DNA from: an uncultured Desulfatitalea sp.
GTDB taxonomy: Bacteria; Desulfobacterota; Desulfobacteria; Desulfobacterales; Desulfosarcinaceae
Direction: 5' to 3'
Length of the DNA stretch: 43,781 nt
Assembly: GCA_937868765.1 (NCBI GenBank)
Contig: CALMNL010000012.1
Coordinates: forward strand, 1 to 43,781
This document shows, piece after piece, positions 23,719-40,956 of the stretch. Under the pieces are notes generated by a model. The model made no database searches and was not told where the DNA came from. It worked only from the letters and a program-made list of their open reading frames with translations. Position 1 is the stretch's first letter; every line of letters starts with the position of its first letter. Made by a program: the position numbers and the translations under genes.

Positions 23719-23736
23719 TATGTAAAATATTACATA
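23719..23736 (+). promoter_or_regulatory. 18-bp palindrome, candidate activator site (site A)
   Basis: TATGTAA (23719-23725), AATA, TTACATA (23730-23736) is a perfect 7-4-7 inverted repeat. Its centre is about 150 bases upstream of the sigma-54 promoter for the small PEP-CTERM-like gene, the usual distance for an enhancer-binding protein. It matches the palindrome at 40744-40761 in the pattern TAnGTAA-N4-TTACnTA. Confidence 0.55.
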
Positions 23737-23875
23737 GTTTGTGTGAAAATGGGATGTCTAATACATAGTTATAAAGTGGCTCCTTGAGAGCTGGACTGGA
23801 CCCCATGGCGGCTTAACACTCGATAACTATCTATAAATTAATATAATTTTTTTAGATTAAGGATCTTCGAAGTTT

Positions 23876-23891
23876 TGGCATTGCAGTTGCT
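23876..23891 (+). promoter_or_regulatory. Sigma-54 promoter of the PEP-CTERM-like gene
   Basis: TTGGCA at 23875-23880 and TTGCT at 23887-23891 give GG-N10-GC exactly (GG 23877-23878, GC 23889-23890). This is close to the sigma-54 consensus TGGCAC-N5-TTGCW. Transcription would begin near 23902, about 40 bases before the ATG at 23942. Confidence 0.8.
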
Positions 23892-23941
23892 TTTAAGCCG
23901 TATAGGTTTGATGGCTTCAAGTGGTGTGGGGAGGTGCTCAG

Positions 23942-24139
23942 ATGAAAAAGGTTCTCAAATACATTATTTCAATAGCGGGGCTTATGTCTGTGGTTCTGTT
24001 TTGTGTAAGCGCGACCGCAAGTATCGCAACTGCGCCCGCTAGTGCAAGTCAGGCATTTTCAGAACCGATAAATATGTTGCTGGCGGGTTTTGGTCTTATT
24101 GGCTTTGGAAGCTTAATAAAAAAAAGAACTCTCCGATAA
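23942..24139 (+). CDS. 65-residue secreted PEP-CTERM-like mini-protein
   Basis: Residues 1-26 form a signal peptide (basic start, hydrophobic core, SATA before the likely cut). The C-terminus has the three parts of an exosortase sorting signal: a short motif SEP (40-42) in place of PEP, a hydrophobic helix INMLLAGFGLIGFGSLI (43-59) and a basic end KKRTLR. Only about 15 residues rich in Ala and Ser would remain between the two signals. GGGGAGG lies about eight bases before ATG 23942, so the ribosome-binding site is strong. A good sigma-54 promoter lies upstream and a terminator follows. PEP-CTERM proteins are known to depend on sigma-54 and on exopolysaccharide loci in other bacteria; no exosortase is in the window. 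It could also be a small membrane protein that mimics the signal. Confidence 0.72.
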   Translation: MKKVLKYIISIAGLMSVVLFCVSATASIATAPASASQAFSEPINMLLAGFGLIGFGSLIKKRTLR

Positions 24140-24166
24140 GAGAGTCATAAAAACAAGAAACAATGC

Positions 24167-24202
24167 GGCCTGGTGGGTTATGCCCGTCAGGCCATTTTTT
24201 TT
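24167..24202 (+). terminator. Rho-independent terminator after the PEP-CTERM-like gene
   Basis: GGCCTG (24167-24172) pairs with CAGGCC (24188-24193), with an inner GGG/CCC pairing, followed by eight T residues (24195-24202). It makes the mini-gene a monocistronic unit. Confidence 0.92.
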
Positions 24203-24277
24203 GAGGTTGATTCTTCTATCACCAGTTGGCAGACACAGCGATTGGAACCTTTGCCATATCCTTTTCTAATTTCTTGC

Positions 24278-24303
24278 TATGTAATAGATCTTGTTGTATG
24301 TAA
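24278..24303 (+). promoter_or_regulatory. Two direct TATGTAA half-sites upstream of the regulator pair
   Basis: The heptamer TATGTAA, one arm of the palindrome at 23719, appears at 24278-24284 and again at 24297-24303, 19 bases apart in the same direction. They lie 60-85 bases before the response-regulator start. Autoregulation is possible. No sigma-54 promoter was found here. Confidence 0.3.
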
Positions 24304-24362
24304 GGCATGTTAGCTCTCTTTTTGGGGAGAACGTAGCATAACCCACCTTCAAGGAGCGGCAA

Positions 24363-24734
24363 ATGAGCTCGCCACCTAAAGTGTTAATAATTGATGACAC
24401 AGAGGAGGTATTGTTTGCCCTGTGCAAATTTTTCAAGCAAAAGGGCTATAATGTGATTTCCGCTTCTAACGGTTTGGATGGCCTTAAAATGATCGAGGCC
24501 GAAAAGCAGGATCTTGACATCATCATTACAGATTTGGTTCTGCCGAATATCAGTGGGGTGGCCGTCATCTCCATCGTCAAAAAGAAATATCCAAATCTGC
24601 CGGTAATTGCCATTACTGGCTGGGGCGAACATCCGGAAGCTTTGGCCAAAGAGGCCAAGGCGGATCTTGTGATGGAAAAACCTTTTAAATTACCAGAACT
24701 TGAAAAGGCTGCAAGGGATCTCCTTGCAAAGTAG
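24363..24734 (+). CDS. Receiver-only response regulator
   Basis: Single receiver domain of 123 residues with no output domain. The acidic pair is Asp11-Asp12 (VLIIDD), the phosphorylated Asp is Asp57 (IITDLVLP), the switch Thr is Thr85 (AITGWG) and the conserved Lys is Lys106 (MEKPFK). AAGGAGCGGCAA precedes ATG 24363. The stop codon is two bases before the start of a sigma-54 activator that lacks its own receiver. The pair therefore looks like an NtrC-type regulator in two pieces, with phosphorylation of this subunit possibly controlling the neighbour. No histidine kinase is in the window. Confidence 0.93.
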   Translation: MSSPPKVLIIDDTEEVLFALCKFFKQKGYNVISASNGLDGLKMIEAEKQDLDIIITDLVLPNISGVAVISIVKKKYPNLPVIAITGWGEHPEALAKEAKADLVMEKPFKLPELEKAARDLLAK

Positions 24735-24736
24735 AG

Positions 24737-25795
24737 ATGTCTGCAATGGGCCCACCCATCATCGGCGCCAGCGAATCTATGCGCAAAATCAAGGAACTCG
24801 TTGAGCATGTGGCTCATACGGGATTCAATACGGTCATTTTTGGGGAAAGCGGCGTGGGCAAGGAGGTCATTGCGCAGAATCTTTACCAGAAATCTCCACG
24901 GATGGGGAAGCCCTTTGTCAAAATCAACTGCGCTGCCTTGCCTGAAGGGCTATTGGAAAGCGAACTCTTTGGTTATGAACGCGGCGCTTTCACGGGCGCT
25001 GAGCAGAAGCGAAGAGGAAAATTTCAACTCGCCCATGGAGGCGTTCTGCTGTTAGATGAGATTGGAGACATGTCATTGGTTTTGCAGGCAAAACTTTTGC
25101 ATGTGCTTCAAAGCGGCGAATTCGCTCCCCTCGGATCTGAAAAAGACGTTAAAACCGATACATGGGTAATCGCTGCAACCAACCATGATCTCAAACAAGA
25201 CATCAGTGACGGAAAATTTAGAGAAGATCTTTACTATAGATTGAATATCATCAAAATCTACGTGCCGCCGCTCCGCGAAAGACCGGAAGATATCGAACCG
25301 CTGATCGATTTTTACATGAACGAGTACGCATCGCAGCTGGGCGGCATTCAGATCGAACGCCCCAGCGCAGGCGTGATCCATAAAATGAAACAATATCACT
25401 GGCCGGGTAACGTCAGGGAACTGCAGAATGTTCTTAAGCGAATGCTGGTGCTGGGCGAGTGCGAGCAAATCATCGACGAACTCTTTGCCGGAGGCATCAG
25501 CCGGCAACCCGATCAGGCACAGGCGGACAGTCCCAGCCAGCCCGATATGATCCATTCGCTATTAGAGATAAATGGAAAAGAAGAGATGGGAGGGCAGAAC
25601 TTTTCCTTGAAAGCCGCTAAAAAAAGAGCTGTCGACCGCGTCGAAAAAGAGATCATCTCCTACGTTCTGACCAAAACCGACTGGAATCGCAGCAAGGCTT
25701 CCAGAATCCTGAAGGTCAGCTACAAAACCCTTCTGAACAAAATAACTGAACTCAATATTACCCCGCCTTCCGGCACAGGTGGATTTTCTCAATAA
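24737..25795 (+). CDS. Sigma-54 enhancer-binding activator without receiver (AAA+ plus Fis HTH)
   Basis: Transcriptional activator of 352 residues that would remodel sigma-54 RNA polymerase using ATP. Walker A is GESGVGKE (36-43), the sigma-54 contact loop is GAFTGA (83-88), Walker B is GGVLLLDEIGD (about 101-109), and the sensor region is REDLYYRLNIIKI with Arg fingers. A Fis-type helix-turn-helix follows at about 310-345 (DWNRSKASRILKVSYKTLLNKI). There is no N-terminal regulatory domain: the protein starts straight with IIGASESMRKIKELV. It starts two bases after the receiver gene, in another frame, so the pair is a split NtrC-like system. PrsR, the PEP-CTERM regulator of other species, is a fused version. 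Targets may be the four sigma-54 promoters nearby. Confidence 0.94.
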   Translation: MSAMGPPIIGASESMRKIKELVEHVAHTGFNTVIFGESGVGKEVIAQNLYQKSPRMGKPFVKINCAALPEGLLESELFGYERGAFTGAEQKRRGKFQLAHGGVLLLDEIGDMSLVLQAKLLHVLQSGEFAPLGSEKDVKTDTWVIAATNHDLKQDISDGKFREDLYYRLNIIKIYVPPLRERPEDIEPLIDFYMNEYASQLGGIQIERPSAGVIHKMKQYHWPGNVRELQNVLKRMLVLGECEQIIDELFAGGISRQPDQAQADSPSQPDMIHSLLEINGKEEMGGQNFSLKAAKKRAVDRVEKEIISYVLTKTDWNRSKASRILKVSYKTLLNKITELNITPPSGTGGFSQ

Positions 25796-25835
25796 GCCCT
25801 CCGTGAGTTGAACGCCTCCTTTCTGGTCATTACTG

Positions 25836-25858
25836 TTACCTTCAGGTGTTGACCTGAA
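25836..25858 (+). promoter_or_regulatory. Dyad TTCAGGT-GTTG-ACCTGAA after the activator gene
   Basis: A perfect 7-4-7 inverted repeat (25841-25858) overlaps an adjoining TTACCTT half-site (25836-25842). There is no T-run, so a terminator is unlikely. It sits about 160 bases before the sigma-54-type promoter at 26012 and could be an activator site or an mRNA 3' stem. Confidence 0.35.
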
Positions 25859-26011
25859 AAATAATCCCCACCCTACTATTTAGTTTTTTTCACATTCGAC
25901 CAGAGGCTTAGGAACCATTTTGCGCCGTAGCTTTTCCGGTCGTTATGCATAGAGGAATAATAACGGTAAGTTGTCAGCATGAAAAGAGTGATCCGGCAGG
26001 GATCTGGTTGG

Positions 26012-26027
26012 AGGTACCGAACTTGCA
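26012..26027 (+). promoter_or_regulatory. Sigma-54-type promoter of the Arg-rich small gene
   Basis: AGGTAC (26012-26017), five bases, TTGCA (26023-26027); GG 26013-26014 and GC 26025-26026 are exactly ten bases apart. The -24 element is less than ideal. Transcription would begin near 26037, just where the folded leader starts. Confidence 0.55.
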
Positions 26028-26036
26028 TATTGAATA

Positions 26037-26170
26037 AGGAGGGGTGGGATCGAAAAAAGTCCCCGAGCCGCTACTCCAGCGAAAGTGGGAGCTCAAAACT
26101 ATCTGAAGTGACAGGGTGCTCCCTTACGCCGGCAAGACGTTAACAGGCACCGAGTCACTTTTAACAAGGT
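26037..26170 (+). ncRNA. Candidate structured leader RNA upstream of the Arg-rich gene
   Basis: Three nested or successive stems are readable. GGGA/TCCC closes an A-rich loop near 26046-26064. CTCC-A-GC-GAAA-GT-GGGAG (about 26075-26091) is a hairpin with a GNRA tetraloop. AAGTGAC-AG-GGTGC pairs with GCACC-GA-GTCACTT (about 26105-26160), with a tandem G-A internal loop. The last stem ends in TTTT just before the ribosome-binding site of the next gene, so folding could affect its expression. It does not match the c-di-GMP (GEMM) consensus or any riboswitch that I can name. Confidence 0.4.
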
Positions 26171-26173
26171 CAT

Positions 26174-26434
26174 ATGGGGATAAATAACTTGTTAGTCGCG
26201 GGAAATTATGTGTCGCTTTCTATGGCCAATCGGATACAGGATCAGTGCGAAGGGGAATTTTCGGTGAACACAAACTGCAACGACAGAGGCGGGCGCCGCA
26301 AAAAAGCGGACCGGAGGCAGTTTTCGTATACGTTTCATATCCCAGAGAGAAGAAGCGGCTCAGATCGGCGCAATTCTGATGATCGGCGAAAAAGCGTGCG
26401 TGAACCCGACGGTATGTCAATTTCAGTCTCATAG
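26174..26434 (+). CDS. Small Arg/Asp-rich protein with RRxxDRR motifs
   Basis: Protein of 86 residues, function unknown. The C-terminal half holds repeated basic-acidic motifs: RRKKADRRQFSY, then ERRSGSDRRNSDDRRKS. Such 'RRSGxDRRxxxDRR' proteins are common in Desulfobacterota near signalling and polysaccharide genes, but no activity is established that I know of. No signal peptide or membrane segment is seen, so it is likely cytoplasmic. ATG 26174 has AAGG five bases upstream; an internal ATG at 26222 is possible and would leave the motif part. It lies behind a sigma-54-type promoter and a structured leader. Confidence 0.7.
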   Translation: MGINNLLVAGNYVSLSMANRIQDQCEGEFSVNTNCNDRGGRRKKADRRQFSYTFHIPERRSGSDRRNSDDRRKSVREPDGMSISVS

Positions 26435-26458
26435 AGTTCATTTTTAAGAATTGCTCTC

Positions 26459-26547
26459 CGGTTCCCGTGCTCTGCGTGGGGACCACAGTAAACAGCGTGT
26501 GGGTTGCGTTGCGGTGAGCGGTGTTGCCACGCAGAACATGGGAACGA
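26459..26547 (+). repeat. REPIN-like pair of inverted palindromes
   Basis: GTTCCCGTGCTCTGCGTGG (26461-26479) is the inverse of the segment 26527-26545, with 17 of 19 bases matching. Each arm is itself an imperfect palindrome (GGTTCCC...GGGGACC; GTTGCC...GGGAAC). The motif resembles the GTTCCCACGCTCTGCGTGGGAAC repeats common in many bacterial intergenic regions and linked to RAYT-type IS200-like transposases. No transposase is in the window. Confidence 0.6.
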
Positions 26548-26636
26548 GAGGCGCAAGCGGCACCTGTATGCGAAAACTACAGGCAATAGCCGTATGCTGA
26601 TCTGGGCCGGCACATTGGGCAAATAAATCATAAAAA

Positions 26637-26654
26637 GTGGCAAAACATTACCTA
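26637..26654 (+). promoter_or_regulatory. Degenerate copy of the 7-4-7 palindrome (site B)
   Basis: GTGGCAA-AACA-TTACCTA keeps one full arm (TTACCTA, identical to the site at 40744) and four of seven bases in the other. Its centre lies about 146 bases before the sigma-54-type promoter at 26790, a spacing similar to site A. Confidence 0.3.
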
Positions 26655-26789
26655 AAAAGCGGTTCTTTTCCTACCACATAAAATCCCTACCCTTTTTCGA
26701 CCCATGCCTCATATTACCACTTTTCCAGTATTACACGTAATATTGATTAGATAAAAAATAAAGTCGAGAACCGCATGTGGTCCAATTTT

Positions 26790-26805
26790 GGGCATATAAA
26801 TTGCT
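26790..26805 (+). promoter_or_regulatory. Sigma-54-type promoter for the exopolysaccharide operon
   Basis: GGGCAT (26790-26795), five bases, TTGCT (26801-26805); GG 26791-26792 and GC 26803-26804 are ten bases apart. Transcription would begin near 26816 and reach the Wzz-like gene through a leader of about 360 bases that contains a large hairpin element. Confidence 0.6.
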
Positions 26806-26879
26806 AAACCCCCACTAAACTATTTGGTTATTCATTTTACGATGCTCTTGAGTGGTGATTTCTGAAAAACCGACAATAC

Positions 26880-27026
26880 TACAGGCCATCTCAAAATAAG
26901 GATTTTGGTTCAAAATCGCGGCGGAGGCAAATGTTAAACCGCAGACATATAATAATATTTGGAGGATTTAAAATTTGCCTCCAACAAAGAGTTTGGGCCA
27001 AAATCTTTATTTTGAGATGGCTTGTA
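26880..27026 (+). mobile_element. MITE-like long inverted repeat flanked by TA
   Basis: Left arm 26882-26938 and right arm 26967-27024 are imperfect inverted copies (roughly 47 of 57 positions agree), joined by a 28-base centre. The outermost 26 bases (CAGGCCATCTC... against ...GAGATGGCTTG) differ at only two positions. A TA dinucleotide borders each end (26880-26881 and 27025-27026), as expected for IS630/Tc1-type insertions. It has no coding capacity. In RNA it would form a very long hairpin in the operon leader. Confidence 0.65.
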
Positions 27027-27178
27027 ATCAAATGCTGACGATAAAGGAATCATCGCCGAAAACGACCGACATCCATATGGTACATCAGCTATAAATCCAT
27101 GTTGAATAAAATAATGATATATGAGAATATCTAACCAAAGGTATTTATTAGAAAAGACTGAATACTGAGCAGAATGAG

Positions 27179-28723
27179 ATGAATGAACCCCATATCGGAA
27201 TTACGCCGGAATTGGTGATCGCTATACTCCGTCGAAGGCGTTGGGTAATCATGGTACCTTGCAGTATTGCATTGCTTGCTGGCATCTTTCTGGCCATTAT
27301 GCTTCCGAGAGTATTTGAGGCCAAGACGATGATCTTGGTCGAAGGCCAAAAGGTCCCGGAGAACTACGTCCAATCCATTGTAACCGAAGATACCTCCCAG
27401 AGGATTGCGACGATTTCCCAGCAAATATTGAGCAGGACGAATCTTGAAAAAATCATCGAGGATTTTAATCTGTTTAAGGGGTCTCAAAAAAATCAAGGAC
27501 ATATCGAAGATCAGGTGGCCAATCTGAGGTCGCGCATATCGATTGAGGTCATAAGGGACGGCAGGCGGCAGACCGAAGCATTCACCATAGGATTCAAGGG
27601 CAGGGACCCGGAAAAGGTGATGCGGGTTGCCAATGGGCTCGCTTCATACTTCATAGATGAAAACCTCAAAGGGCGGGAAACCCAGGCTATAGGCACAAGC
27701 ACATTCCTGGAAGCGGAGCTGGAGACGATGCGCTTGAAGCTAGAGCAATTTGAGGAAAAAATGAAAAATTACAGAAAGACCTATATGGGCGAGTTGCCGG
27801 AGCAATTGGAAACAAATTTGAGAATCATAGAGCGGTTGCAAATGGCTCTGACAGGTAGGCAACAAAGCCTTCGAGATGCGAGAACTCGATTAGACAATCT
27901 CAACAGCCGAGCGACCAATCGTGAGCCTTCGGTAGTTATCATCGGTGGGGATAGACGGGCGAACGAGGAAACTGCGTCCCTTGAGGGGCTGAGATCCCAG
28001 CTTGAGGCCATTCAATCTCGGTATACAGACAAACATCCCGATATCCAGAGGCTTAAGAAGCAAATCGCCGAACTCGAAATCAGTGCCAATACGACAGACG
28101 CAGAATCAGCGATGGGTAGCTGGATACCATTCGAATTGCGCCAAAGGATATTGGAAGCCAATCGGGAGATCCAGTTCGAGGAAGATGAAATCGAAGGCCT
28201 GAAGATGCAGATTGCAGAGTATCAGAGGCGGGTTGAAAACATTCCCAAGCGAGAGCAGGAGATGCTCGGCTTGAGAAGAGATTACGAGAATGTCCAATCG
28301 ATCTATGAATCGCTTTTGACGCGCAAGCTTGAAGCCGATATCGCTGTCAACATGGAACGCAAACAAAAGGGTGAGCAATTCAGAATCATCGATTCGGCCA
28401 GGATTCCTCAGAAACCGATCGCTCCGAATCTGAAAAAGCTATTTATGCTCTCCATTGCTGCCGGATTAGCTTTGGGTTTCGGCTTGGCTCTTTTTCTGGA
28501 AAATACAATTCCTTCGTATCGAAGACCTGATGAAATCGAAAAGCAATTCAATGTACCTGTGCTGGTGTCGATCCCGCAATTGATGTCGCCCAAACAACTT
28601 CTTATTGGAAAACTGAACACAGTTGCCAGTATTGCTTACTCAGTGGTACTTTTCGGTTTAATTGGAATATTTGCTTTTATCAGCTTCACGGGTGCGGATG
28701 CAGCCATCGATGCACTTAGATAA
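27179..28723 (+). CDS. Wzz-family polysaccharide chain-length determinant
   Basis: Inner-membrane co-polymerase of 514 residues that sets polymer length and works with a tyrosine kinase. The N-terminal Wzz domain follows a helix at about 21-41 (WVIMVPCSIALLAGIFLA). The periplasmic part is largely coiled coil with a GNVR-type region (EMLGLRRDYENVQSIYESLLTRKLEA, about 363-388). A second helix is at about 414-436 and a third near the C-terminus (about 478-502). The extra C-terminal helix and the length recall the chain-length proteins of XrtA/PEP-CTERM polysaccharide loci. ATG 27179 has a weak ribosome-binding site. It heads the exopolysaccharide gene set and is followed by its likely kinase. 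Confidence 0.9.
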   Translation: MNEPHIGITPELVIAILRRRRWVIMVPCSIALLAGIFLAIMLPRVFEAKTMILVEGQKVPENYVQSIVTEDTSQRIATISQQILSRTNLEKIIEDFNLFKGSQKNQGHIEDQVANLRSRISIEVIRDGRRQTEAFTIGFKGRDPEKVMRVANGLASYFIDENLKGRETQAIGTSTFLEAELETMRLKLEQFEEKMKNYRKTYMGELPEQLETNLRIIERLQMALTGRQQSLRDARTRLDNLNSRATNREPSVVIIGGDRRANEETASLEGLRSQLEAIQSRYTDKHPDIQRLKKQIAELEISANTTDAESAMGSWIPFELRQRILEANREIQFEEDEIEGLKMQIAEYQRRVENIPKREQEMLGLRRDYENVQSIYESLLTRKLEADIAVNMERKQKGEQFRIIDSARIPQKPIAPNLKKLFMLSIAAGLALGFGLALFLENTIPSYRRPDEIEKQFNVPVLVSIPQLMSPKQLLIGKLNTVASIAYSVVLFGLIGIFAFISFTGADAAIDALR

Positions 28724-28810
28724 GTGTTGGGGGCCTGATTATTTTTGGTTCAATGCGGGTTGATAATTTTTTAAAGCCAACTTTTATTATCAAAAATATA
28801 GGAGAGATCA

Positions 28811-29647
28811 ATGGGTAAAATCTTCGATGCCCTTGAAAAGGCGAGCAATCAGACCGATAACACGGCTCCATTGACGCGCTCCAGAGCAGATGCAAATGAA
28901 GGCGCAAGGAGCGCAGATAATGTTGTGGCCCTATCCAGTACCAATAAAATAGCACAGGAATATCGGCTTGATCCAAACTTGGTCGCGTATCACTCTCCCC
29001 AGTCCATAGAGGGCGAGCTTTTCAAAATGTTGAGAACCAATCTGCTGTTTCCGCCATCGGGGAAACCTCCTAAAAAAGTACTGATTACGAGCGCTTTACC
29101 TGGTGATGGCAAGTCTTTTATCAGTTCGAACATGGCGATAAGCATCGCTCAAGGTGTTGAAGAGTATGTGCTTCTGATTGATGCGGATGTCCGCAGGCCT
29201 ACTATTCATTCCTATTTTGGATTCGGGAAAGTAGCTGGGTTGAGCGAACACCTGGCAGCTGGGACGGAGGTTTCAAAGATATTACTTAAGAGCCCAATCC
29301 CCAAACTGACTATCTTTCCGGCAGGGAACTCTCCTAAAAATCCAACTGAGCTATTGTCCTCAAAAAAAATGAAAAAGCTCCTTGAGGAAGTGGGAAAACG
29401 ATACGATGATCGCTTTATAATCATCGATTCTCCACCACCCAGCATGGCCGCGGAAACCAATGCTATTGTGAACTTTGTAGACGCGGTTATTCTCGTCATC
29501 AGGGCCGGGAAAACACCGAGGAAGGCTGTGTCTAGTACCATAGATCAAATAGGAAAAGAAAAGATAGTAGGCATCGTGCTTAATTATTCAGATCAGGCAT
29601 TAAAAAAATACTACGGATATGGTCGCCCATATTTCGATAAAAAATAA
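28811..29647 (+). CDS. CpsD/CapB-type tyrosine autokinase
   Basis: Cytoplasmic bacterial tyrosine kinase (BY-kinase), 278 residues, expected to act with the Wzz-like protein to control polymer synthesis. The P-loop is PGDGKS (about 97-102), Walker A' is LLIDADVRRP (about 121-130), and Walker B is FIIIDSPPPS (about 200-209). The C-terminus has a Tyr cluster (YSDQALKKYYGYGRPYF) for autophosphorylation. The start MGKIFDALEKA is shared by kinases of XrtA-type loci in delta-proteobacteria. GGAGAG lies just upstream of ATG 28811. It is 87 bases after the Wzz gene and close in codon use. Confidence 0.92.
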   Translation: MGKIFDALEKASNQTDNTAPLTRSRADANEGARSADNVVALSSTNKIAQEYRLDPNLVAYHSPQSIEGELFKMLRTNLLFPPSGKPPKKVLITSALPGDGKSFISSNMAISIAQGVEEYVLLIDADVRRPTIHSYFGFGKVAGLSEHLAAGTEVSKILLKSPIPKLTIFPAGNSPKNPTELLSSKKMKKLLEEVGKRYDDRFIIIDSPPPSMAAETNAIVNFVDAVILVIRAGKTPRKAVSSTIDQIGKEKIVGIVLNYSDQALKKYYGYGRPYFDKK

Positions 29648-29664
29648 ATGTAGCAAATCACAGT

Positions 29665-29835
29665 ATGCTACGACTGTTCAAACAATATTACCCGATCAGG
29701 AAAGCGATACTCGTATCTGGGGAATGTATTATTGGTAATACTTCTGATGTAATATGCCTCATCATCGTTAACCTGTTCGATGCGATATACTTGCCGAAGC
29801 AAAAAAACTTCAGTCACGCAGATCGATCGCGATAA
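29665..29835 (+). pseudogene. Remnant resembling the N-terminus of an XrtA-type priming glycosyltransferase
   Basis: A 56-codon frame from ATG 29665 to TAA 29833 begins MLRLFKQYYPIRKAILVSGE. This closely recalls the start of the EpsB-like priming sugar transferases of XrtA/PEP-CTERM loci, which open with M(L/I)R(L/V)F-QY-PIR and a hydrophobic helix with GE. The family match fades after about 45 residues, and no transferase domain follows before 30133. No Shine-Dalgarno is evident. The position directly after the Wzz and kinase genes is where such a gene often lies. I read it as a decayed fragment; a chance small frame is the alternative. Confidence 0.45.
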
Positions 29836-30132
29836 AGTAATCGACCATGCGGAGCTTTAATGGCAGAATCAGAAATTCAAACGATTGAAATTTGTATGAA
29901 TACCTTAACTTACATCAATACCTATAACTAACCCAAAATGAGATCTTGAAACCGATCCAACGTGGATATTTGCATACCGATGTCAATTTTGATGAGACTA
30001 CAATATCAACTGCTTTTCATCATTGGAATAGAAAAGATGCAAGTGACACCAGCGAATGTGAATGACTGCACCAAAAAGCGCAAAAGTAGCGTTTGCACCG
30101 CACGGGTGTGAACATACATAAGGAGATTTACC
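29836..30132 (+). other. AT-rich non-coding stretch, possible decayed gene
   Basis: No intact gene is present. A frame reading KPIQRGYLHTDVNFDETT (about 29945-30068) is open but not recognised. A good ribosome-binding site (AAGGAGA) at the right end belongs to the next gene. Confidence 0.3.
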
Positions 30133-30978
30133 ATGATCCGCAAATTGGGAATTTTAAATAGAACCAATCTGGCTTTGTGCGTAGCTTTTGCTATCGCCGC
30201 TTGTAACGGAGGTTCCATAACCGAACAGATACCTCACCGAGAGAGGCTTGGAGATGTTACGGAGGCCGATTGGCAAAAATTGTCTAACAAAAAAATATAT
30301 TTTGGTCACCAATCTGTGGGGTTCAACATTATGGATGGTATCGAAGACCTCCAAAAAGAAAATTTGCGAATAAAATTGAATATTGTCGAAACGAATGAGC
30401 TTGAAAAGATTTCGCAAGGTATTTTCGCTCATTCGCGTATCGGGCGGAACGGTGATCCAAAGTCAAAGATCGATGATTTTGCAACGTTCATAAACCAGGC
30501 AGGCGAAGATAGATTGGATTATGCGGGAATGAAGTTTTGTTATGTGGATATGAATGCTGATACCGATGTTAAAAAGTTGTTCAGCGATTACTCCACAGCC
30601 ATGGCAAAGCTCAAAGAACTTCATCCGAAAATGACCATAATTCATTTTACCATGCCTCTGATGGTGAATCGAGAATCATGGAAAACTAAAATTAAAAAAA
30701 TCTTCGGCAAAACCGAAATTTGGGAATATGCAGCCAACACCAACAGAAACCGGTTCAATCAATTGATTATCGAAGCATATCAGGGAAAGGAACCCCTTTT
30801 GGATATTGCTAAAATCGAGTCGACGAAGCCAGATGGTTCGCGCCAGGCCTTCGATCAAAACGGAGTTACCTATTATTCAATGGCTCCCGAGTATTCTTAC
30901 GATAACGGTCATTTGAATGAAATCGGCCGCAAAAGAGTAGCAGAACAATTGCTACTTCTTTTAATAAATCTCAAGTAG
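30133..30978 (+). CDS. SGNH-hydrolase-like lipoprotein
   Basis: Predicted secreted lipoprotein of 281 residues. The signal ends in AIAAC with the lipidated Cys at about residue 24. The mature part has IYFGHQSVGFNIMDGI near residue 55 and ends with YDNGHLNEIGRKRVAEQLL, a good match for the SGNH block V with catalytic Asp/His. A clear block I GDS is not seen, so the nucleophile is uncertain (the HQSVG Ser is a candidate). Proteins of this type often remove or add acyl groups on polysaccharides. AAGGAGATTTACC precedes ATG 30133. It is placed inside the exopolysaccharide set; a role in polymer decoration is inferred. Confidence 0.7.
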   Translation: MIRKLGILNRTNLALCVAFAIAACNGGSITEQIPHRERLGDVTEADWQKLSNKKIYFGHQSVGFNIMDGIEDLQKENLRIKLNIVETNELEKISQGIFAHSRIGRNGDPKSKIDDFATFINQAGEDRLDYAGMKFCYVDMNADTDVKKLFSDYSTAMAKLKELHPKMTIIHFTMPLMVNRESWKTKIKKIFGKTEIWEYAANTNRNRFNQLIIEAYQGKEPLLDIAKIESTKPDGSRQAFDQNGVTYYSMAPEYSYDNGHLNEIGRKRVAEQLLLLLINLK

Positions 30979-31130
30979 ATTGTGTTCCCAAATAATTTCA
31001 AGAAAGAACTCTCATTTGATGGTTACTATCGAATAATTATTTGTTTCCTGAAAACGGCAAAAACTAGCAGAATTAGAATGTGAACCCGAAAGACATGCGC
31101 CGATATATTTAAAGCTAAGGAACCATACTA

Positions 31131-32273: not shown

Positions 32274-32323
32274 AGCAGGTAAAGACGTACGCATAGGTTT
32301 CGCGAAAGTTGCGTAAAGGTTTG

Positions 32324-33892: not shown

Positions 33893-33893
33893 A

Positions 33894-34787
33894 ATGAAGG
33901 GAATAATTTTAGCCGGCGGTTCCGGTACCAGGCTCTATCCAGTTACAAATGTCGTCAGCAAACAGCTGCTTGCGGTTTATGATAAGCCGATGATTTATTA
34001 TCCTTTATCGGTCCTGATGCTTGCAGGTATCAGAGAAATATTGATCATTTCATCGCAATTCCAGTTGCCCTTATTTAAACAGCTTTTTGGGGACGGAAGA
34101 CAGCTTGGGCTCAGACTGGACTATGCCGAGCAAGCGCAACCCAAGGGAATTGCGCAAGCATTCATTATCGGTAAAGAATTTTTAGGACGCAGCAACGTGT
34201 GTCTAATATTAGGAGACAATATTTTTTACGGACAAGGTTTTCAAAAAATCTTATTCGAGGCCTCCGGAATTGATACAGGTGCCTATATTTTTGGGTATTG
34301 GGTAAATGATCCAGAAAGATATGGAGTTGTGGAATTCGATAAATCCTTAAAGGTGCTCAGCATCGAGGAGAAACCACTTAAGCCGAAAAGCAATTATGTC
34401 GTACCTGGTCTATATTTTTATGATAACAAGGTCATCGATATCGCATCCAGCTTGAAACCATCGAACAGAGGTGAATTAGAGATCACGGATGTAAACAAGG
34501 CCTATTTAACAAATGGTGAACTGAAGGTGAAACTGTTCGGGCGTGGATTCGCATGGTTAGATACCGGGACGCATGACTCTTTGCTTGATGCTGGAATCTT
34601 TGTGTCCACCATTGAAAAAAGGCAAGGGTTGAAGGTCGCTTGTATCGAGGAGGTCGCTTACCGGATGGGATATATAGATGCCGCGCAAGTTGAAAAATTA
34701 GCGATGACTCAGATTAAAAGCGGCTACGGGAAATACCTGATGGATACCTTGAATTACGAAGTCCGCGGCATCATGCGGAAAAGCTAA
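33894..34787 (+). CDS. rfbA: Glucose-1-phosphate thymidylyltransferase
   Basis: Makes dTDP-glucose from dTTP and glucose-1-phosphate, first step to dTDP-deoxysugars; 297 residues. It starts [18 protein letters not shown] with the nucleotide-binding GGxGxRL-P motif, then [31 protein letters not shown] and the C-terminal [19 protein letters not shown] lies nine bases before the ATG and the previous stop is one base away. No rfbB, rfbC or rfbD is in the window; the aminotransferase at 39510 needs the RfbB product, so the dehydratase must be encoded elsewhere. Confidence 0.97.
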
Positions 34788-34819
34788 ATTATGCCGAAAA
34801 AGAAAGCCAGATAAAGAAT

Positions 34820-35767
34820 ATGGATAATAGCGAAAAAAAAGCTCTTCCTAAATATTCTGTGGTTATACCTGTTTATAATAGCGAAGCGACACTGAATGAG
34901 CTATGTCGAAGGCTGGCCTCAGTATTCGAAAGCAACGGTCTTCTGTATGAAATCATTCTGGTAAATGATGCCAGCTCCGATAAAAGCTGGCAGGTTATGA
35001 AAGATCTTAAGAAAAACTACCGCTTTCTAAAAATCATACAATTGATGCGTAACTTTGGACAACATAATGCTTTGATTTGCGGTTTTCATTATGTGACGGG
35101 CAATTACGTTATTACCATGGATGACGACCTGCAGAACCCCCCTGAAGAAATTCCTAAAATGATTTCGAAAATAAATGACGGCTACGATGTCGTGATCGGT
35201 GCTCAGATCGTCAAGCAGCATAGTATATTCAAAAATTTCAGCAGCTTTATCATACGGTATCTGAATGAGAGAATTTTCAATAAACCCAAAGAGCTCAGGC
35301 TATCGAGTTTCAGGATTTTGACCCGTGCTGTAACGGATGAGATTAAAACCTTGAAAACGCCCTATCCTTATATTTCCGGTCAAATGCTGTCAATCACCCG
35401 AAATATCGTAAATGTCGATGTCATTCACGATAAACGCAAATTCGGAAAGTCTACCTATACTTTCAGGAAATTATTGAATCTCGCGTTCAATCTTGTCATA
35501 AACTATTCTTCTTTGCCACTGAGGGTTTTGACACTCATTGGGATCAGCGTATCCGCGGTTTCTTTCTGCATGGGCATGTTCTTTATCGCGAAAAAAGTCG
35601 TCGTTGGAATACCGGTTAGCGGTTGGACGTCTGTCGTCGTGCTATTATCGTTTTTCAATGGGTTGCTCTTAATTATCATATCGATAATCGGCGAGTATCT
35701 GGGGAGAATAATCAATGAGGTCTCCAATAGACAACAATTTGTGGTGCGCGAAAAATTGATTGATTAA
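34820..35767 (+). CDS. GT2 polyprenyl-phosphate glycosyltransferase (ArnC/GtrB-like)
   Basis: Of the 315 residues, the first 215 or so form a GT2 domain: YSVVIPVYNSEATLNELC, VNDASSDKSW, MRNFGQHNALICGF and MDDDLQNPPEEIP (metal-binding Asp residues). FGKSTYTFRKLLNLAFN comes next, then two membrane helices (about 228-252 and 262-288) and the EYLGRI tail. The order is as in ArnC and GtrB, which load a sugar onto undecaprenyl phosphate at the inner membrane. The likely user is the GT-C protein at 32324. The sugar cannot be deduced; a 4-amino-4,6-dideoxy sugar is an option given the aminotransferase nearby. Confidence 0.9.
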   Translation: MDNSEKKALPKYSVVIPVYNSEATLNELCRRLASVFESNGLLYEIILVNDASSDKSWQVMKDLKKNYRFLKIIQLMRNFGQHNALICGFHYVTGNYVITMDDDLQNPPEEIPKMISKINDGYDVVIGAQIVKQHSIFKNFSSFIIRYLNERIFNKPKELRLSSFRILTRAVTDEIKTLKTPYPYISGQMLSITRNIVNVDVIHDKRKFGKSTYTFRKLLNLAFNLVINYSSLPLRVLTLIGISVSAVSFCMGMFFIAKKVVVGIPVSGWTSVVVLLSFFNGLLLIIISIIGEYLGRIINEVSNRQQFVVREKLID

Positions 35768-35851
35768 AAGCCGAAATACCGGGTTGTAATAATAAAGACT
35801 TATCCGAAAGAAATGCAGCCTTCTGGGGTACACGAATACATAAACAATCCT

Positions 35852-37084
35852 ATGAAAAAAAAACTGATAATTCTAGGCGCTGGCGAAAACCAGGTCCCAA
35901 TTATTGATCTGGCAAAGCAGAAAGATTATTACACCATTGCAATCAGCATCGATGGAGACTACCCGGGTTTCAAACATTGCGATAAAAAATACATAATGGA
36001 TGTGCGTGAAAAGGAGTACATCCTTGATATCGCAAGAAAAGAGAAGATTACAGGAATTTTGACCGATCAGACAGATATTGCCGTTCCGACGGCGGCTTAT
36101 GTCGCTGAAAAATTAGGTCTTCCCGGTATTGGATATGAATGCGCTTTGAGCTTCACGAACAAATTTAAGATGCGAGAAAGCTGCGAAAAGACTAAGATCA
36201 AGACCATCGGATTCAGGCGTGCCTCGAATTATAAAGAGGCAGATAAAGCAGCGCGGGAGCTTTCATTGCCGCTGATCATCAAGCCGGTCGACAACCAGGG
36301 CAGTCGCGGCGTCGGAAAAGTTGATCGCTATTCCGATTTGAAAGAAAAATTCGATAGGGCGATTAAATATTCCTCGACAGGTACTGTCATTATAGAAGAG
36401 TTCTTTCAAGGCCGCGAAATTGTTATTGAGGGATTCTCTAAAGATTATAAGTTCCATAACCTGATCATCGGAGACAGTGAGAATTTCGAATCTATCGAGA
36501 TGTTTATACCAAAGCAGAGGATTTTTCCAACCACTCTGAACTCTGAAATCAAGGCAAAAGTGCTGTCAGCCAACAGGGGCCTCGTCGAAAAGCTGGGCTT
36601 GAAATTTGGTATAACGCACTCTGAGTTTCTGGTAAATGAAACCAACGGTGACATATGTCTAATTGAAATTGCCGCAAGGGGAGGAGGGGTATTTATTTCT
36701 TCGGATTTGATACCGCTCGCTTGTGGAATCAATGTAAATGAACTTTTGATCGAACTTTCTGCGGGTGGAAACCCCGATTTCGATATGAAAGGTTATGTCG
36801 AGGCCTCTTCCGGCTATGTATGTTTCCTTCTTCCAGAAGGCACCATCACGAAAGTCGAAGGCTTGGAAGAGGTAAAGAAATTGCCAGGAGTTCACAGGGC
36901 CTGTCTTGCAAATATCCAATTGGGTATAAAAACACCATGCCTAAAAGATAAAACCTCCCGGCTTGGGCCCATTTTGGTTTCAGCCGAAAACAGGAATAAG
37001 CTGCTGGATATTATTCAAGAGTTAAAAACACTTCTAAAGATAGAAGTTGAAACATCAAACGGAACAAGAGGAATAATGTGGTGA
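35852..37084 (+). CDS. ATP-grasp carboxylate-amine ligase
   Basis: Predicted ligase forming an amide or carboxylate bond with ATP, 410 residues. The pre-ATP-grasp part begins KKLIILGAGENQVPIIDLA. The grasp fold follows with LIIKPVDNQGSRGVGKV (ATP-binding Lys and the Gly-rich loop), VIIEEFFQGREIVIEGF, and the metal-binding block ICLIEIAARGGGVFIS. The substrate is not evident. Neighbours suggest joining an amino or carboxylic acid to a sugar amine. The start at 35852 fits the family N-terminus; ATG 35813 would add 13 residues and neither has a clear Shine-Dalgarno. Confidence 0.82.
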   Translation: MKKKLIILGAGENQVPIIDLAKQKDYYTIAISIDGDYPGFKHCDKKYIMDVREKEYILDIARKEKITGILTDQTDIAVPTAAYVAEKLGLPGIGYECALSFTNKFKMRESCEKTKIKTIGFRRASNYKEADKAARELSLPLIIKPVDNQGSRGVGKVDRYSDLKEKFDRAIKYSSTGTVIIEEFFQGREIVIEGFSKDYKFHNLIIGDSENFESIEMFIPKQRIFPTTLNSEIKAKVLSANRGLVEKLGLKFGITHSEFLVNETNGDICLIEIAARGGGVFISSDLIPLACGINVNELLIELSAGGNPDFDMKGYVEASSGYVCFLLPEGTITKVEGLEEVKKLPGVHRACLANIQLGIKTPCLKDKTSRLGPILVSAENRNKLLDIIQELKTLLKIEVETSNGTRGIMW

Positions 37085-37095
37085 GGAGGATAACG

Positions 37096-38412
37096 ATGAG
37101 TAAATCTACAATCCTTCATGCAATAAGAGTCCTTAAAAGTCACATTATTTATTCCTATAGCCAAAATTGGAATAAGGAACAGATAGAAAACCATCAGGAT
37201 AAAAAATTAATAAATATCGTCAAGCATGCGGCTAGGAATGTCCCCTACTACCGAAACCTGTTCAGTAACATCGGTTTCGATGCTAATGATTTCAGGGGCC
37301 GAATCGATATGCACAAGGTACCGCTTTTAGACAAGCAAACCTTGCGTACTCGCCAGAAGGAATTCATCGCTGATAATGCCGATAGATTTGGTATAAACTG
37401 GGAAACCACCAGTGGGTCGACGGGTACGCCCCTTAAATTGGCGATCGACAATTCGACCAAAGCGCATAAACTCGGTGCGGTCTTGCGCAGCTACCGATGG
37501 GCCGGATATATACCTTGGAAAAGAACTTTCAGTATACAAAGCTATAAATTCGCCGATCCAAAAGCAATCTACAAGCATTACCCGATGGTCAATATGTGGC
37601 GTTTCAATTCACGATTGCTATCGAAAGATGCCTCATTAGAAATACTGGCAATGATAAATGATTTGAAACCTGAAATGATGATTGGGTATCCCTTCTCGAT
37701 TTATATGTTGAGCAAATTCGCAAAAGATGAGAGAATTCCGATCCACCCCATTCGATCTATCGTAACCGCAGGAGAAACGCTGAGCGAAAAGAGAAGGATA
37801 CTATTGGAAGAGGCCTATCAATGCAGCGTCTACGATTTCTATTCCCACCACGAAGATGTCGCCATCATTTCCGAGTGTAAAAAGCATTCCAAGCACCTTT
37901 TCGATGATTTTTCTTACACTGAGATAATCGATGAGCAAACTGGTGAAACAAAAACATCAGGGAGCGGTGAACTTGTGGGCACCGGCTTTTATAATTATGC
38001 GATGCCGTTGATTCGTTACAGGGTAGGCGACAAAGTTGTCCTGAATGACAACCAGGAACCATGCCCGTGTGGGTGTAGGTTTCGTACATTAGAAGAGATC
38101 ATCGGCAGGCAGAACGATTATATCGTCACGCCCGATGGCCGCTACATCGGAAACGTTCTTGAACATGCGATCGATAAGTCCAAAGGGGTGATCCTTTCCC
38201 AATGCGTCCAAGATTCTGTCGACCATGTGTATTTGAACCTGATCGTCGACAATACCTTCAGCCAGGACTCCATTGGCGATTTGGAAAAAGGGATCAGGGC
38301 CAGATTGGGGGATGAGCTTTTAATCGATTATAAAATTGTCACTGAACTTGAGAAAAAGCCAAGTGGAAAAACCCCCTTCATCATGTCGAAGATCGGCCAA
38401 GAGTTCATATGA
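37096..38412 (+). CDS. PaaK/CapK-like adenylate-forming enzyme
   Basis: Member of the ANL superfamily of 438 residues, resembling phenylacetate-CoA ligase and the CapK capsule protein. The ATP-binding P-loop is TTSGSTGTPLKLAID (about 111-125). FDFSYTEIIDEQTGE and GTGFYNYAMPLIRYRVGDKVVL form the adenylate-binding region, and CPCGCRFRTLEEIIGRQNDYI the hinge. A catalytic Lys is likely in KPSGKTPF at the C-terminus. AGGAGG is six bases before ATG 37096. It may activate the acyl group put on a sugar amine. It overlaps the next gene as ATGA. Confidence 0.85.
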   Translation: MSKSTILHAIRVLKSHIIYSYSQNWNKEQIENHQDKKLINIVKHAARNVPYYRNLFSNIGFDANDFRGRIDMHKVPLLDKQTLRTRQKEFIADNADRFGINWETTSGSTGTPLKLAIDNSTKAHKLGAVLRSYRWAGYIPWKRTFSIQSYKFADPKAIYKHYPMVNMWRFNSRLLSKDASLEILAMINDLKPEMMIGYPFSIYMLSKFAKDERIPIHPIRSIVTAGETLSEKRRILLEEAYQCSVYDFYSHHEDVAIISECKKHSKHLFDDFSYTEIIDEQTGETKTSGSGELVGTGFYNYAMPLIRYRVGDKVVLNDNQEPCPCGCRFRTLEEIIGRQNDYIVTPDGRYIGNVLEHAIDKSKGVILSQCVQDSVDHVYLNLIVDNTFSQDSIGDLEKGIRARLGDELLIDYKIVTELEKKPSGKTPFIMSKIGQEFI

Positions 38413-39434
38413 AAAAGAAGGTATTCCGGTATTTACGCTGGCTGATCGGCATTGCCATTCTATTCATCGTTTTTAAACAAATTGATCTCGAAAAACTCAA
38501 GGAGTATCTATTAAGGTCAAACTACTGGTTGATAGCTCTGGGATTACTGCATTCTCCACTCTTGATTCTTGTGGGGGCGATCCGGTGGCAGTATATTCTG
38601 GCGCAATTTTTCAAGCCGAAGCTCGCAACGCAATCGGCTATCGTGCATTATTGGTCCGGTGTGGCGATAGGCTTCTTCACCCCTGCATCTTTGGGGCTGG
38701 ATGCCTATCGTGTCCTTTACGGGGGAAGGGTTTATGGCGGCTACACCATCAATGCCATTGCCGTTATCATTGAGAAAATTTTAGCATTGATCACATGTGC
38801 TTCCCTATTTGTTGCGCTTTACCCGATCGTTCCAATATCCATCGATAATCAACTCATGGCAGTATTATATATTGCCTTTTTTGTCATGATTTGTTTTTTC
38901 ATTGCGCTGCTTTTTTCAAAAGCTGTCCTAAAAAGCCATACCGTAATGCGCTTTATATCGAAATTGGACGCTCAGGGCGCAAGAATTCTAAAGAAGATCA
39001 GTCAAAAATACGCCTTCAACAACGAAAAAGTTTCACTGGCCCAAATACTGAACGAGGTAACGACAGCGTTATCAATTCTTAAGATCTCCAATGTTATAGC
39101 ATTCACAATGGCCATTCAATTTATCACCTCATTGAAAAGCCAGATTTTTTTCACCGCTATCGGATATGATTTACCGTTTCTTATCAACTTATTCGTAGCG
39201 CCGACGCTGTATTTCATTTTTATGCTGCCAATTTCTTTCGGCAGTCTTGGGATACGCGAGGGAGTCTATATTGTCTTGTACGGTCTGTTCGGTATCCCCG
39301 CGGAGATAGCGCTAATCGTAAGCTTTTTCAATTTGGTCGGGATGGCTTTAAACAATCTCATTGGGGCTATAATTATGATGTTTGCTAAAAATATTGAAAA
39401 TCTAGAGATACGCAGCCATAAAAAGCACCTCTAA
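38409..39434 (+). CDS. UPF0104 membrane protein (lysylphosphatidylglycerol synthase TM domain)
   Basis: Integral membrane protein of 341 residues with seven to eight helices. Family marks are YLRWLIGIAILFIVFKQID with the helix of the N-terminus, GAIRWQYIL, GVAIGFFTPASLGLDAYRVLY (the conserved core), and LPISFGSLGIREGVYIVLYGLFG. This group occurs in polysaccharide and hopanoid clusters and is proposed to move or tether lipid-linked substrates; it has no MprF catalytic domain here. The start overlaps the previous stop (ATGA), so translation is likely coupled. Confidence 0.85.
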   Translation: MKKKVFRYLRWLIGIAILFIVFKQIDLEKLKEYLLRSNYWLIALGLLHSPLLILVGAIRWQYILAQFFKPKLATQSAIVHYWSGVAIGFFTPASLGLDAYRVLYGGRVYGGYTINAIAVIIEKILALITCASLFVALYPIVPISIDNQLMAVLYIAFFVMICFFIALLFSKAVLKSHTVMRFISKLDAQGARILKKISQKYAFNNEKVSLAQILNEVTTALSILKISNVIAFTMAIQFITSLKSQIFFTAIGYDLPFLINLFVAPTLYFIFMLPISFGSLGIREGVYIVLYGLFGIPAEIALIVSFFNLVGMALNNLIGAIIMMFAKNIENLEIRSHKKHL

Positions 39435-39509
39435 AAGCCATAAACAAGAATCAGGCCGGCAGGTAAGGCGCGCGGTTCAATCACATTAACAAAGGGGATC
39501 GAGCAAATC

Positions 39510-40637
39510 ATGATACCTTTCAACAAGCCTTTCATCGTTGGCAAAGAACTCTATTATATTTCCCAGTCCGTACTATCTGGTAAAATCGCCGGTGACGGAC
39601 TCTTCACCAAAAAATGCCATGAATTGATGGAAAAACAATTCGGTGCCAGAAAAGTCTTACTCACCCACTCGTGTACCGCTGCATTGGAAATGGCAGCGAT
39701 TCTATGCGGGATAAACAACAACGACGAAGTCATAATGCCCTCATACACCTTCGTTTCGACAGCCAACGCATTCTACTTAAGGGGTTGCAAGATTAAATTC
39801 GTTGATATCCGAAGCGATACTTTAAATATCGATGAAAATTTAATCGAAGCCGAAATTTCCGACAACTCGAAGGTCATCGTTCCAGTGCACTATGCCGGTG
39901 TTTCTTGTGAAATGGACACCATCCTCAGCACCGCAAGAAAGCACAATTTATATGTCGTCGAGGACGCTGCGCAAGGCGTCAATGCGAAATACAAAGATCG
40001 CTATCTGGGAACTATCGGAGATATTGGAGCCTATAGTTTTCACGAAACGAAGAACCTCATCAGTGGGGAAGGCGGCGCAATTGTCATCAACAACGAAAAA
40101 TTTTTAGAACGGGCTGAAATAATAAGAGAAAAAGGAACAAACCGCAGCAAATTCTTCAGAGGAGAAATTGATAAATATACTTGGGTGGATATCGGATCGT
40201 CATATTTGCCCTCCGATATTATCGCCGCTTTTCTCTATGCCCAGCTTGAAAACATCGAGATTATCGACAATCGCAGAAAAGAGCTGAACGAAATGTACAG
40301 CCGGGAACTCATTCCGCTGGTAAATGATGGGAAGTTGAGGTTGCCTTATGTTTCGGAGGAATGCCAGAGTAATAACCATCTATTTTATATAATTCTCGAA
40401 AACGAAAATATAAGAGATTCTCTGATTCAGCATCTCAAAGCTAATGGAATCCATTCTGTTTTTCACTACATCCCACTGCACCTCTCTCCCATCGGTCAGT
40501 CAATGGGATACAAAAAAGGGCAACTGCCCGTTACCGAATCAATGAGTGAAAGATTGCTACGGCTCCCGTTTTACTACGAATTATCAAAAAATGAACAAGT
40601 ACTTGTTATCAAAGCCATAAAGTCCTTTTTTGCCTGA
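39510..40637 (+). CDS. wecE: dTDP-4-amino-4,6-dideoxy sugar transaminase (WecE/RffA-like)
   Basis: PLP-dependent aminotransferase of the DegT/DnrJ family, 375 residues as in E. coli WecE. It begins IPFNKPFIVGKELYYI, has THSCTAALEMAAIL, MPSYTFVSTANAFYLRG, VVEDAAQGVNA and the PLP-binding Lys181 in SFHETKNLISGEGG; EKGTNRSKFFRGEIDKYTWVDIGSSYLPSD is a WecE-type stretch. It should convert dTDP-4-keto-6-deoxyglucose to dTDP-4-amino-4,6-dideoxygalactose using glutamate. The gene is preceded by AAAGGGG about 14 bases before the ATG and is the last one of the exopolysaccharide set. The exact sugar product cannot be proved. Confidence 0.88.
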   Translation: MIPFNKPFIVGKELYYISQSVLSGKIAGDGLFTKKCHELMEKQFGARKVLLTHSCTAALEMAAILCGINNNDEVIMPSYTFVSTANAFYLRGCKIKFVDIRSDTLNIDENLIEAEISDNSKVIVPVHYAGVSCEMDTILSTARKHNLYVVEDAAQGVNAKYKDRYLGTIGDIGAYSFHETKNLISGEGGAIVINNEKFLERAEIIREKGTNRSKFFRGEIDKYTWVDIGSSYLPSDIIAAFLYAQLENIEIIDNRRKELNEMYSRELIPLVNDGKLRLPYVSEECQSNNHLFYIILENENIRDSLIQHLKANGIHSVFHYIPLHLSPIGQSMGYKKGQLPVTESMSERLLRLPFYYELSKNEQVLVIKAIKSFFA

Positions 40638-40743
40638 TAGGTGATGCCTGAGATATATATTTTTAGGTTCGAATCGAGTTTTATCCTCAAACGGGGATGC
40701 ATTAATACCTTGACTTCCTAGAAAACGAAAACATTTACATATA

Positions 40744-40761
40744 TAGGTAATATTTTACCTA
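40744..40761 (+). promoter_or_regulatory. 18-bp palindrome, candidate activator site (site C)
   Basis: TAGGTAA (40744-40750), TATT, TTACCTA (40755-40761) is a perfect 7-4-7 inverted repeat. It is about 90 bases before the -24 element of the sigma-54 promoter for the golvesin-repeat gene. It agrees with site A in five of seven arm positions plus spacing (TAnGTAA). Confidence 0.55.
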
Positions 40762-40841
40762 TTAAAATTCTTTGTCTGAGCTTTGAAGCCGATAACCATT
40801 TGAAAGCGTAGAAAATATGAGATAAATTTTATCTTCATTTC

Positions 40842-40857
40842 TGGCACACATCTTGTA
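40842..40857 (+). promoter_or_regulatory. Sigma-54-type promoter of the golvesin-repeat gene
   Basis: TGGCAC (40842-40847), five bases, TTGTA (40853-40857). GG 40843-40844 and GT 40855-40856 lie ten bases apart; the -12 has GT instead of GC, a tolerated variant. Transcription would begin near 40868, giving a leader of about 90 bases. Confidence 0.65.
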
Positions 40858-40956
40858 TTGGCCTGAACTCGAACAGTTAACTGAACCTTTCGTCTTCATT
40901 AAAAATCGATAGAGACACTTTGCGGGCAGCAGCAACAGCTAGAAACGGAGAAAGGT

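Follow-up and report, generated by a model that had tools for sequence, protein, structure and literature searches.

The stretch of DNA analysed here (the window) is the whole of contig C12, 43781 nt, from the genome of an uncultured Desulfatitalea sp. (G000; 5.36 Mb in 18 contigs, estimated 100% complete), to which, among named records, those of Desulfatitalea and Desulfobacteraceae are closest. It carries a gene for a PEP-CTERM-like mini-protein, a gene pair for a stand-alone receiver (REC) and a receiver-less sigma-54 activator, a gene for an arginine-rich (Arg-rich) small protein, an exopolysaccharide (EPS) operon and, at the contig end, a gene for a golvesin-repeat surface protein. A preliminary description of this DNA had placed a sigma-54-type -24/-12 box before the mini-protein gene, the Arg-rich gene, the EPS operon and the golvesin gene, and had proposed that all four belong to one regulon of the activator. 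We found the four elements as claimed, each with the spacing GG-N10-G[CT] and a preceding TTG (4/4; Table 1). When scored with our own weighting of the -24/-12 consensus, boxes of at least 9.5 were not enriched over the whole window (five found compared with 5.5 in a Markov null; both strands, 60 runs), and the case therefore rests on placement, conservation and the enhancer described below. Four of these five boxes sit in intergenic gaps before genes and the fifth (25087) lies within the activator gene. Across the 27 intergenic gaps (5288 bp, both strands) the only boxes scoring at least 9 are the four of the preliminary description, all on the coding strand, as against null expectations of 0.45 at a score of 9.5 (0/300 nulls reaching four) and 0.98 at 9.0 (P 0.04). 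In addition, the exact pattern TGGCAC-N5-TTGCW occurs 30 times in the own genome, compared with twice for the reversed pattern.

Conservation was assessed upstream of orthologues in relatives (genomes G001-G010, with compared loci given L numbers; a wider relatives search took in 40 genomes), the counts covering the mini-protein, Arg-rich and EPS head promoters. The boxes recur at all three promoters compared. With the window counted, the mini-protein box is kept in 5/5 genus members in which the gene was found and the Arg-rich box in 9/10 loci, the exception (L043) matching only in part and having no box, and the box at the EPS operon head is present in 14/14 (eight relatives, five further relatives and the window). 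Best-box P values in 20 of the relatives' upstream regions ran from 0 to 0.06, the weak EPS box of L039 having the P of 0.06.

Three of the four boxes are also preceded, 90-150 bp upstream, by a palindromic enhancer that reads approximately TRTGTAA-N4-TTACATA. An 18-bp motif was learned by an expectation-maximization script from 12 upstream regions of relatives (four mini-protein, eight EPS), with the window excluded, and reached a log-likelihood of 84.0 compared with 43.0-54.4 in eight base-shuffled sets (80 restarts for the real set and 40 for the shuffles). Run over both strands of the window, this relatives-only matrix returned as its top three distinct sites those of three of the four promoters. 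The golvesin site was fully held out, having no counterpart in the training set, and the other two owe part of their conservation to descent; sites similar to the mini-protein enhancer align in four genus members. Five EPS heads outside the training set carried the enhancer at 22.6 (L036), 18.8 (L037), 17.6 (L135), 10.8 (L010) and 5.0 bits (L008). These data show that the enhancer is common to three of the promoters and is able to predict sites at genes held out of the training. A 12-mer, GTAANATNTTAC, picked out by eye in palindromic surroundings, is also shared by the upstream regions of the mini-protein and golvesin genes, and the genome has no copy of it besides these two in the window; its rarity is no proof, because a reversed control (three hits per strand) is equally rare. 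The proposal of a shared regulon is thus borne out for the mini-protein gene, the EPS operon and the golvesin gene, because a specific palindromic enhancer is common to them besides the box, and less so for the Arg-rich gene, where the box is conserved and the enhancer weak.

Table 1. Features of the window, with one further gene of the same genome (last line)
Feature	Position	Strand	Evidence or details
Palindromic enhancer (upstream activator site), mini-protein gene	23717..23738	.	TATGTAAAATATTACATA core; 20.1 bits, window's best site
Sigma-54-type box, mini-protein gene	23875..23892	+	TTGGCATTGCAGTTGCTT; score 11.5
Mini-protein, 65 aa, signal peptide and PEP-CTERM-like tail (SEPINMLLAGFGLIGFGSLIKKR)	23942..24139	+	Translation
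Terminator-like hairpin and T run ending the mini-protein unit	24168..24203	+	Read directly by eye
Stand-alone receiver domain (REC), first gene of activator pair	24363..24734	+	PF00072 78.7 bits
Receiver-less sigma-54 activator	24737..25795	+	AAA+ PF00158 226.6 bits; HTH_8 36.8 bits
Weak enhancer-like site, Arg-rich gene	25875..25892	-	8.3 bits; -136; shuffle P 0.05
Sigma-54-type box, Arg-rich gene	26011..26028	+	GAGGTACCGAACTTGCAT; score 9.5
Arg-rich small protein, start codon uncertain	26174..26434	+	GGRRK..DRR..YTFHIPERRSG.DRR
Enhancer, EPS operon	26639..26656	+	GGCAAAACATTACCTAAA; 15.5 bits, window's third distinct site
Sigma-54-type box, EPS operon	26789..26806	+	TGGGCATATAAATTGCTA; score 10
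Palindromic MITE-like repeat, ~148 bp, between promoter and operon	26880..27027	.	76% identical to own reverse complement
AAA2 remnant, last codons ISYKSMLNKIMIYENI and stop	27084..27134	+	tblastn, frame translation, DNA match
Chain-length determinant (XrtA-type), first intact EPS operon gene	27179..28723	+	TIGR03007 288.9 bits (cut-off 278.85)
Tyrosine autokinase, EPS operon	28811..29647	+	TIGR01007 147.8 bits, above cut-off
Palindromic enhancer, golvesin-repeat gene	40742..40763	.	TAGGTAATATTTTACCTA core; 16.8 bits, second distinct site
Sigma-54-type box, golvesin-repeat gene	40841..40858	+	CTGGCACACATCTTGTAT; score 10; GT at -12
Secreted golvesin/PKD-repeat surface protein, cut by contig end	40957..43781	+	PF25275 263.4 bits; PF18911 98.4 bits
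GAF-PAS-GGDEF diguanylate cyclase	C8, L150:5236-7500		Enhancer and sigma-54 box upstream

A search of the own genome, window included, with the enhancer consensus returned 19 hits, which correspond to 16 distinct sites once palindromic double hits were merged by hand, compared with nine for a reversed-pattern control. A box of at least 9.5 lies within 60-240 bp at 6/16 of these sites, where approximately 0.3 would be expected from the 13 boxes in 129,785 bp. Three of the six pairs are those of the window; the others precede a canonical PEP-CTERM gene (203 aa) on C15 and the diguanylate cyclase gene on C8, and the last, on C4 (L115), is weaker. On C6, a palindrome (16.2 bits) and a box precede another PEP-CTERM gene. 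On this evidence the regulon appears to extend to two PEP-CTERM genes and a diguanylate cyclase, the last being a possible cyclic di-GMP arm. Among the relatives, G007 has enhancer and box together before a PEP-CTERM gene, and G001 has them before the gene of an fn3 protein. A survey of 11 genomes gave 60 PEP-CTERM matches, four in the own genome and 56 in 9/10 relatives, G005 having none. Two of the four own genes have the palindrome, one, beside the regulator gene prsR, has a PrsR-type motif instead, and one has no box. Our script's own PEP-CTERM pattern returned 55 rows, some of them not true PEP-CTERM tails, with a box of at least 9.5 in 23/55; for 14/23 of these the best palindrome had a shuffle P of 0.025 or less, in a test that used 40 shuffles each and accepted palindromes anywhere in the 230 bp before the box, some of them at unlikely distances. 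The rows from G001 had no box in 7/7.

The receiver-less activator retains the GAFTGA motif, Walker B and a Fis-type HTH (helix-turn-helix), and has one orthologue in each of 19/40 genomes searched, all 19 of which, the window's counted, have GAFTGA and no fused receiver. The REC gene adjoins it in 20/22 loci, the other two (L044 and L046) having the activator at a contig start; frequent neighbours are the Arg-rich gene and the EPS operon. The activator gene had been described as the sole transcription factor gene of the region, which holds for the intact genes around the promoters, but a remnant of a second one lies directly before the chain-length gene. In relatives this position is occupied by an activator-like protein, here called AAA2, which heads the EPS operon and itself stands behind a sigma-54 box. 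One cultured relative, Desulfatitalea alkaliphila M08but (L033), has the activator and AAA2 together with the boxes and the enhancer. At 1e-50 AAA2 was found in 7/40 genomes and was not found in the own genome (41 of 67 first-look candidates scored). In an alignment of eight AAA2 proteins read by eye, GAFTGA is present in 0/8 and Walker B is broken in 7/8. A tblastn search of the remnant with the relatives' AAA2 is weak alone (best E 0.029), and its location is that of AAA2 in the relatives. The neighbouring repeat, similar to a miniature inverted-repeat transposable element (MITE), has a copy at 88% on C15 (L148:7859-8007) and others in G006 (L242 and L298).

From this anatomy, and from other proteins that lack GAFTGA, we suggest that AAA2 may act as a brake. 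One such protein, from V. cholerae, has been printed as 'VspR', which we take to mean VpsR. Bacterial enhancer-binding proteins without GAFTGA, such as Caulobacter and Rhodobacter NtrC and V. cholerae 'VspR', are reported to act at sigma-70 promoters (PMC10274813). AAA2 is like these in having no GAFTGA, and it heads an EPS operon; it is unlike them in standing behind a sigma-54 box and in being deleted in the window.

Sigma-54 control of PEP-CTERM genes has a precedent in the PrsK/PrsR regulon, for which Haft et al. 2006 (PMC1569441) describe a fused REC-AAA-HTH regulator, PrsR, with a kinase, PrsK, and a PrsR motif of 17 nt ending in TTTACA at a mean spacer of 62.8 nt (range 32-92 nt). The own genome has a true PrsR (543.5 bits) and PrsK (311 bits), both above cut-off, on C4, with a PEP-CTERM gene between them that has TGTCGGCAGACTTTACA 61 bp before its box and has no palindrome; this motif fits the published one. 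Similar PrsR-type motifs at -61 occur in G006 (L293) and G008 (L259); in G006 the PEP-CTERM gene that adjoins PrsR (L277) is preceded by a box and lacks TTTACA. We considered and rejected the window activator as PrsR, since it scores 283 bits with TIGR02915 against a cut-off of 502.6 and its orthologues have no fused receiver. By eye, no TTTACA lies 32-92 nt before any of the four boxes, the golvesin promoter having one approximately 101 nt before. The parallel with PrsK/PrsR that the preliminary description had drawn has to be amended, as PrsK and PrsR themselves are encoded elsewhere in this genome with a different enhancer and the window activator falls short of the PrsR model. The regulon of PMC1569441 and the one proposed here are alike in having sigma-54 boxes, with an activator site upstream of them, in front of PEP-CTERM genes that mostly form single-gene units, and a regulator that usually lies near EPS genes. 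The window differs in its receiver-less activator with a separate receiver and in a palindrome centred 90-150 bp upstream, and both kinds coexist here. A search for exosortase (PF09721) gave 0 matches in the own genome, despite four PEP-CTERM genes above cut-off, PrsK and PrsR, whereas 20/40 genomes of the relatives search had a match at E 0.001; loss, a contig gap and a divergent enzyme are the alternatives.

Other known systems offer partial likenesses. DVUA0057 and DVU0110 of the sulfate reducer Desulfovibrio vulgaris are sigma-54 activators assigned to EPS and biofilm genes, and DVUA0057 bound the predicted PEP-CTERM targets by DAP-chip (DNA affinity purification on microarrays), according to PMC3333781 and PMC4641369; they differ in being two-component response regulators, and the comparison covers regulators and targets. 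In Aquincola tertiaricarbonis, pepA is RpoN-dependent, with a mapped start, boxes TGGCAC and CTGCTT and a predicted enhancer (PMC9850573). It is like the window in its -24/-12 boxes before a PEP-CTERM gene, but the strain has PrsK/PrsR and is not a sulfate reducer.

Taken together, we think it likely, on the strength of the promoter DNA and its conservation, that the window holds the central part of a sigma-54 regulon concerned with the cell exterior, in which a palindrome-binding activator works at -24/-12 promoters. The candidate activator, modulated in trans by the stand-alone receiver, would bind TRTGTAA-N4-TTACATA and loop to sigma-54 RNA polymerase at the boxes, where transcription would start. 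The genes switched on would be those of the EPS operon, the mini-protein and the golvesin surface protein, joined outside the window by the genes of two PEP-CTERM proteins and the diguanylate cyclase. In relatives, AAA2, with its similar HTH (a score of 90 against the activator's HTH, self-score 183), may act as a brake at the EPS operon head. The coat and surface-protein genes probably form one co-regulated set distinct from the known one; as PrsK and PrsR of the same genome go with a different enhancer, the set looks like a second circuit. We favour the window's AAA+ protein as the binder because it adjoins the enhancers, because gene order is maintained across the family and because the sites persist in G000 despite the loss of AAA2, and it is the best candidate and the likely binder, with two incomplete genomes (G004, 86% complete, and G010, 95%) against it.

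Several observations weigh against this regulon or its activator. The Arg-rich promoter has a weak enhancer-like site alone, which ranks 15th among window positions, and the sites at eight Arg-rich orthologues have P from 0 to 0.47. Three enhancer sites of at least 15.5 bits in the own genome have no sigma-54 box. In seven genus relatives the bare enhancer pattern gave 93 hits compared with 89 for the reversed control, and few hits, taking one per locus, were paired with a box (G001 5/20, G003 1/15, G007 2/8, G008 1/4, G009 2/16, and 0/11 in G002, which has the activator). The genes with PrsR-type motifs at L293, at L259 and at G002's L278 also score as palindrome-bearing (14.2, 13.0 and 11.5 bits), and the clean split of two enhancer types is limited to the own genome because these relatives' genes score for both. 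The activator's HTH is not unlike others in the genome, the best of which scores 82 against the 90 of AAA2, and we discarded a unique HTH as an argument, since it is not distinct enough to settle specificity and several of the 21 own stretches compared have no recognizable HTH. Finally, G004 and G010, in which a close activator relative was not found, also have PEP-CTERM genes with a palindrome upstream (19.6 and 19.0 bits, respectively); taken as a stand-in for activator presence per genome, the enhancer fits G006 and does not fit these two.

The two misfits, with the 34 activator-like matches at 1e-60 in the own genome, would be explained if a third activator of the genus bound the palindrome and the REC-AAA pair regulated something else. 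However, throughout the family the pair keeps its place beside promoters that bear the enhancer; in G006, which lacks the activator and is 99% complete, 0/16 pattern hits are paired with a box, which we count for the assignment; and no HTH nearer than that of AAA2 was found among stretches from G000 (21), G010 (6) and G004 (11), several of them without a recognizable HTH. We regard such a third activator as unlikely. Less probable still is control of the window promoters by the true PrsR of C4, with a different job for the window activator. In other species PrsR-type regulators are tied to genes for PEP-CTERM proteins and EPS (PMC1569441, PMC3333781), PrsR and PrsK are both encoded here above cut-off, and in G006, G008 and G002 the TTTACA motif and a palindrome-like site stand before the same gene. 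Against this, the gene between PrsK and PrsR has the other motif and no palindrome, with two other boxed PEP-CTERM genes showing the reverse; enhancer and box occur in G001 and G007, both without PrsR above cut-off (G007 being 73% complete); and the HTH of PrsR scores 36 with that of the activator, whose self-score is 183. A reading of the four boxes as separate sigma-54 promoters that no activator joins, or as partly accidental, would suit the whole-window count and the Arg-rich promoter, but is very improbable given the intergenic placement, the orthologue conservation and a common enhancer derived from relatives alone.

Among the remaining features, the mini-protein, with orthologues in four other genus members, falls below the PEP-CTERM (PF07589) cut-off (14.1 compared with 20.7 bits). 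The Arg-rich protein is conserved beside the activator in nine loci and the window (L043 being the partial one); the window protein matched neither Pfam nor NCBIfam at E 0.1. An odd leader before its gene prompted an Rfam search of the whole window, which had no match at the gathering threshold. The EPS tyrosine autokinase lies below the TIGR03018 cut-off (196 compared with 230.65 bits), and the EPS operon protein at 30133-30978 has no confident family match. We found no convincing enhancer or good box for autoregulation of the REC-AAA pair. A further enhancer-like palindrome (1517-1534, 13.9 bits) lies where the isoleucyl-tRNA synthetase gene begins, with no box of at least 9.5 found nearby.

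That sigma-54 governs EPS and PEP-CTERM genes is already known; what is new here is that the enhancer is palindromic, that the candidate activator is split, that PrsR is present in the same genome and that a sister gene has been lost. The enhancer is not named in the title or abstract opening of any paper listed by our literature searches on PEP-CTERM proteins, sigma-54 EPS control and GAFTGA-less proteins. As a tentative and rather doubtful extension, Desulfosarcina relatives might have a second, PrsR-independent sigma-54 coat circuit with a split activator and an AAA2 brake competing for the same site; here the brake would have been deleted, the MITE-like repeat marking the scar, so that EPS would answer to the activator only, and the regulon would make its own diguanylate cyclase. 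The natural deletion of a GAFTGA-less activator relative is on offer for studying its role, and what were promoter look-alikes become a testable regulon with a defined enhancer. This regulon predicts which genes are switched together during coat building in sulfate reducers of this family, and suggests that PEP-CTERM genes of a single genome can be divided between two sigma-54 circuits, each with its own enhancer.

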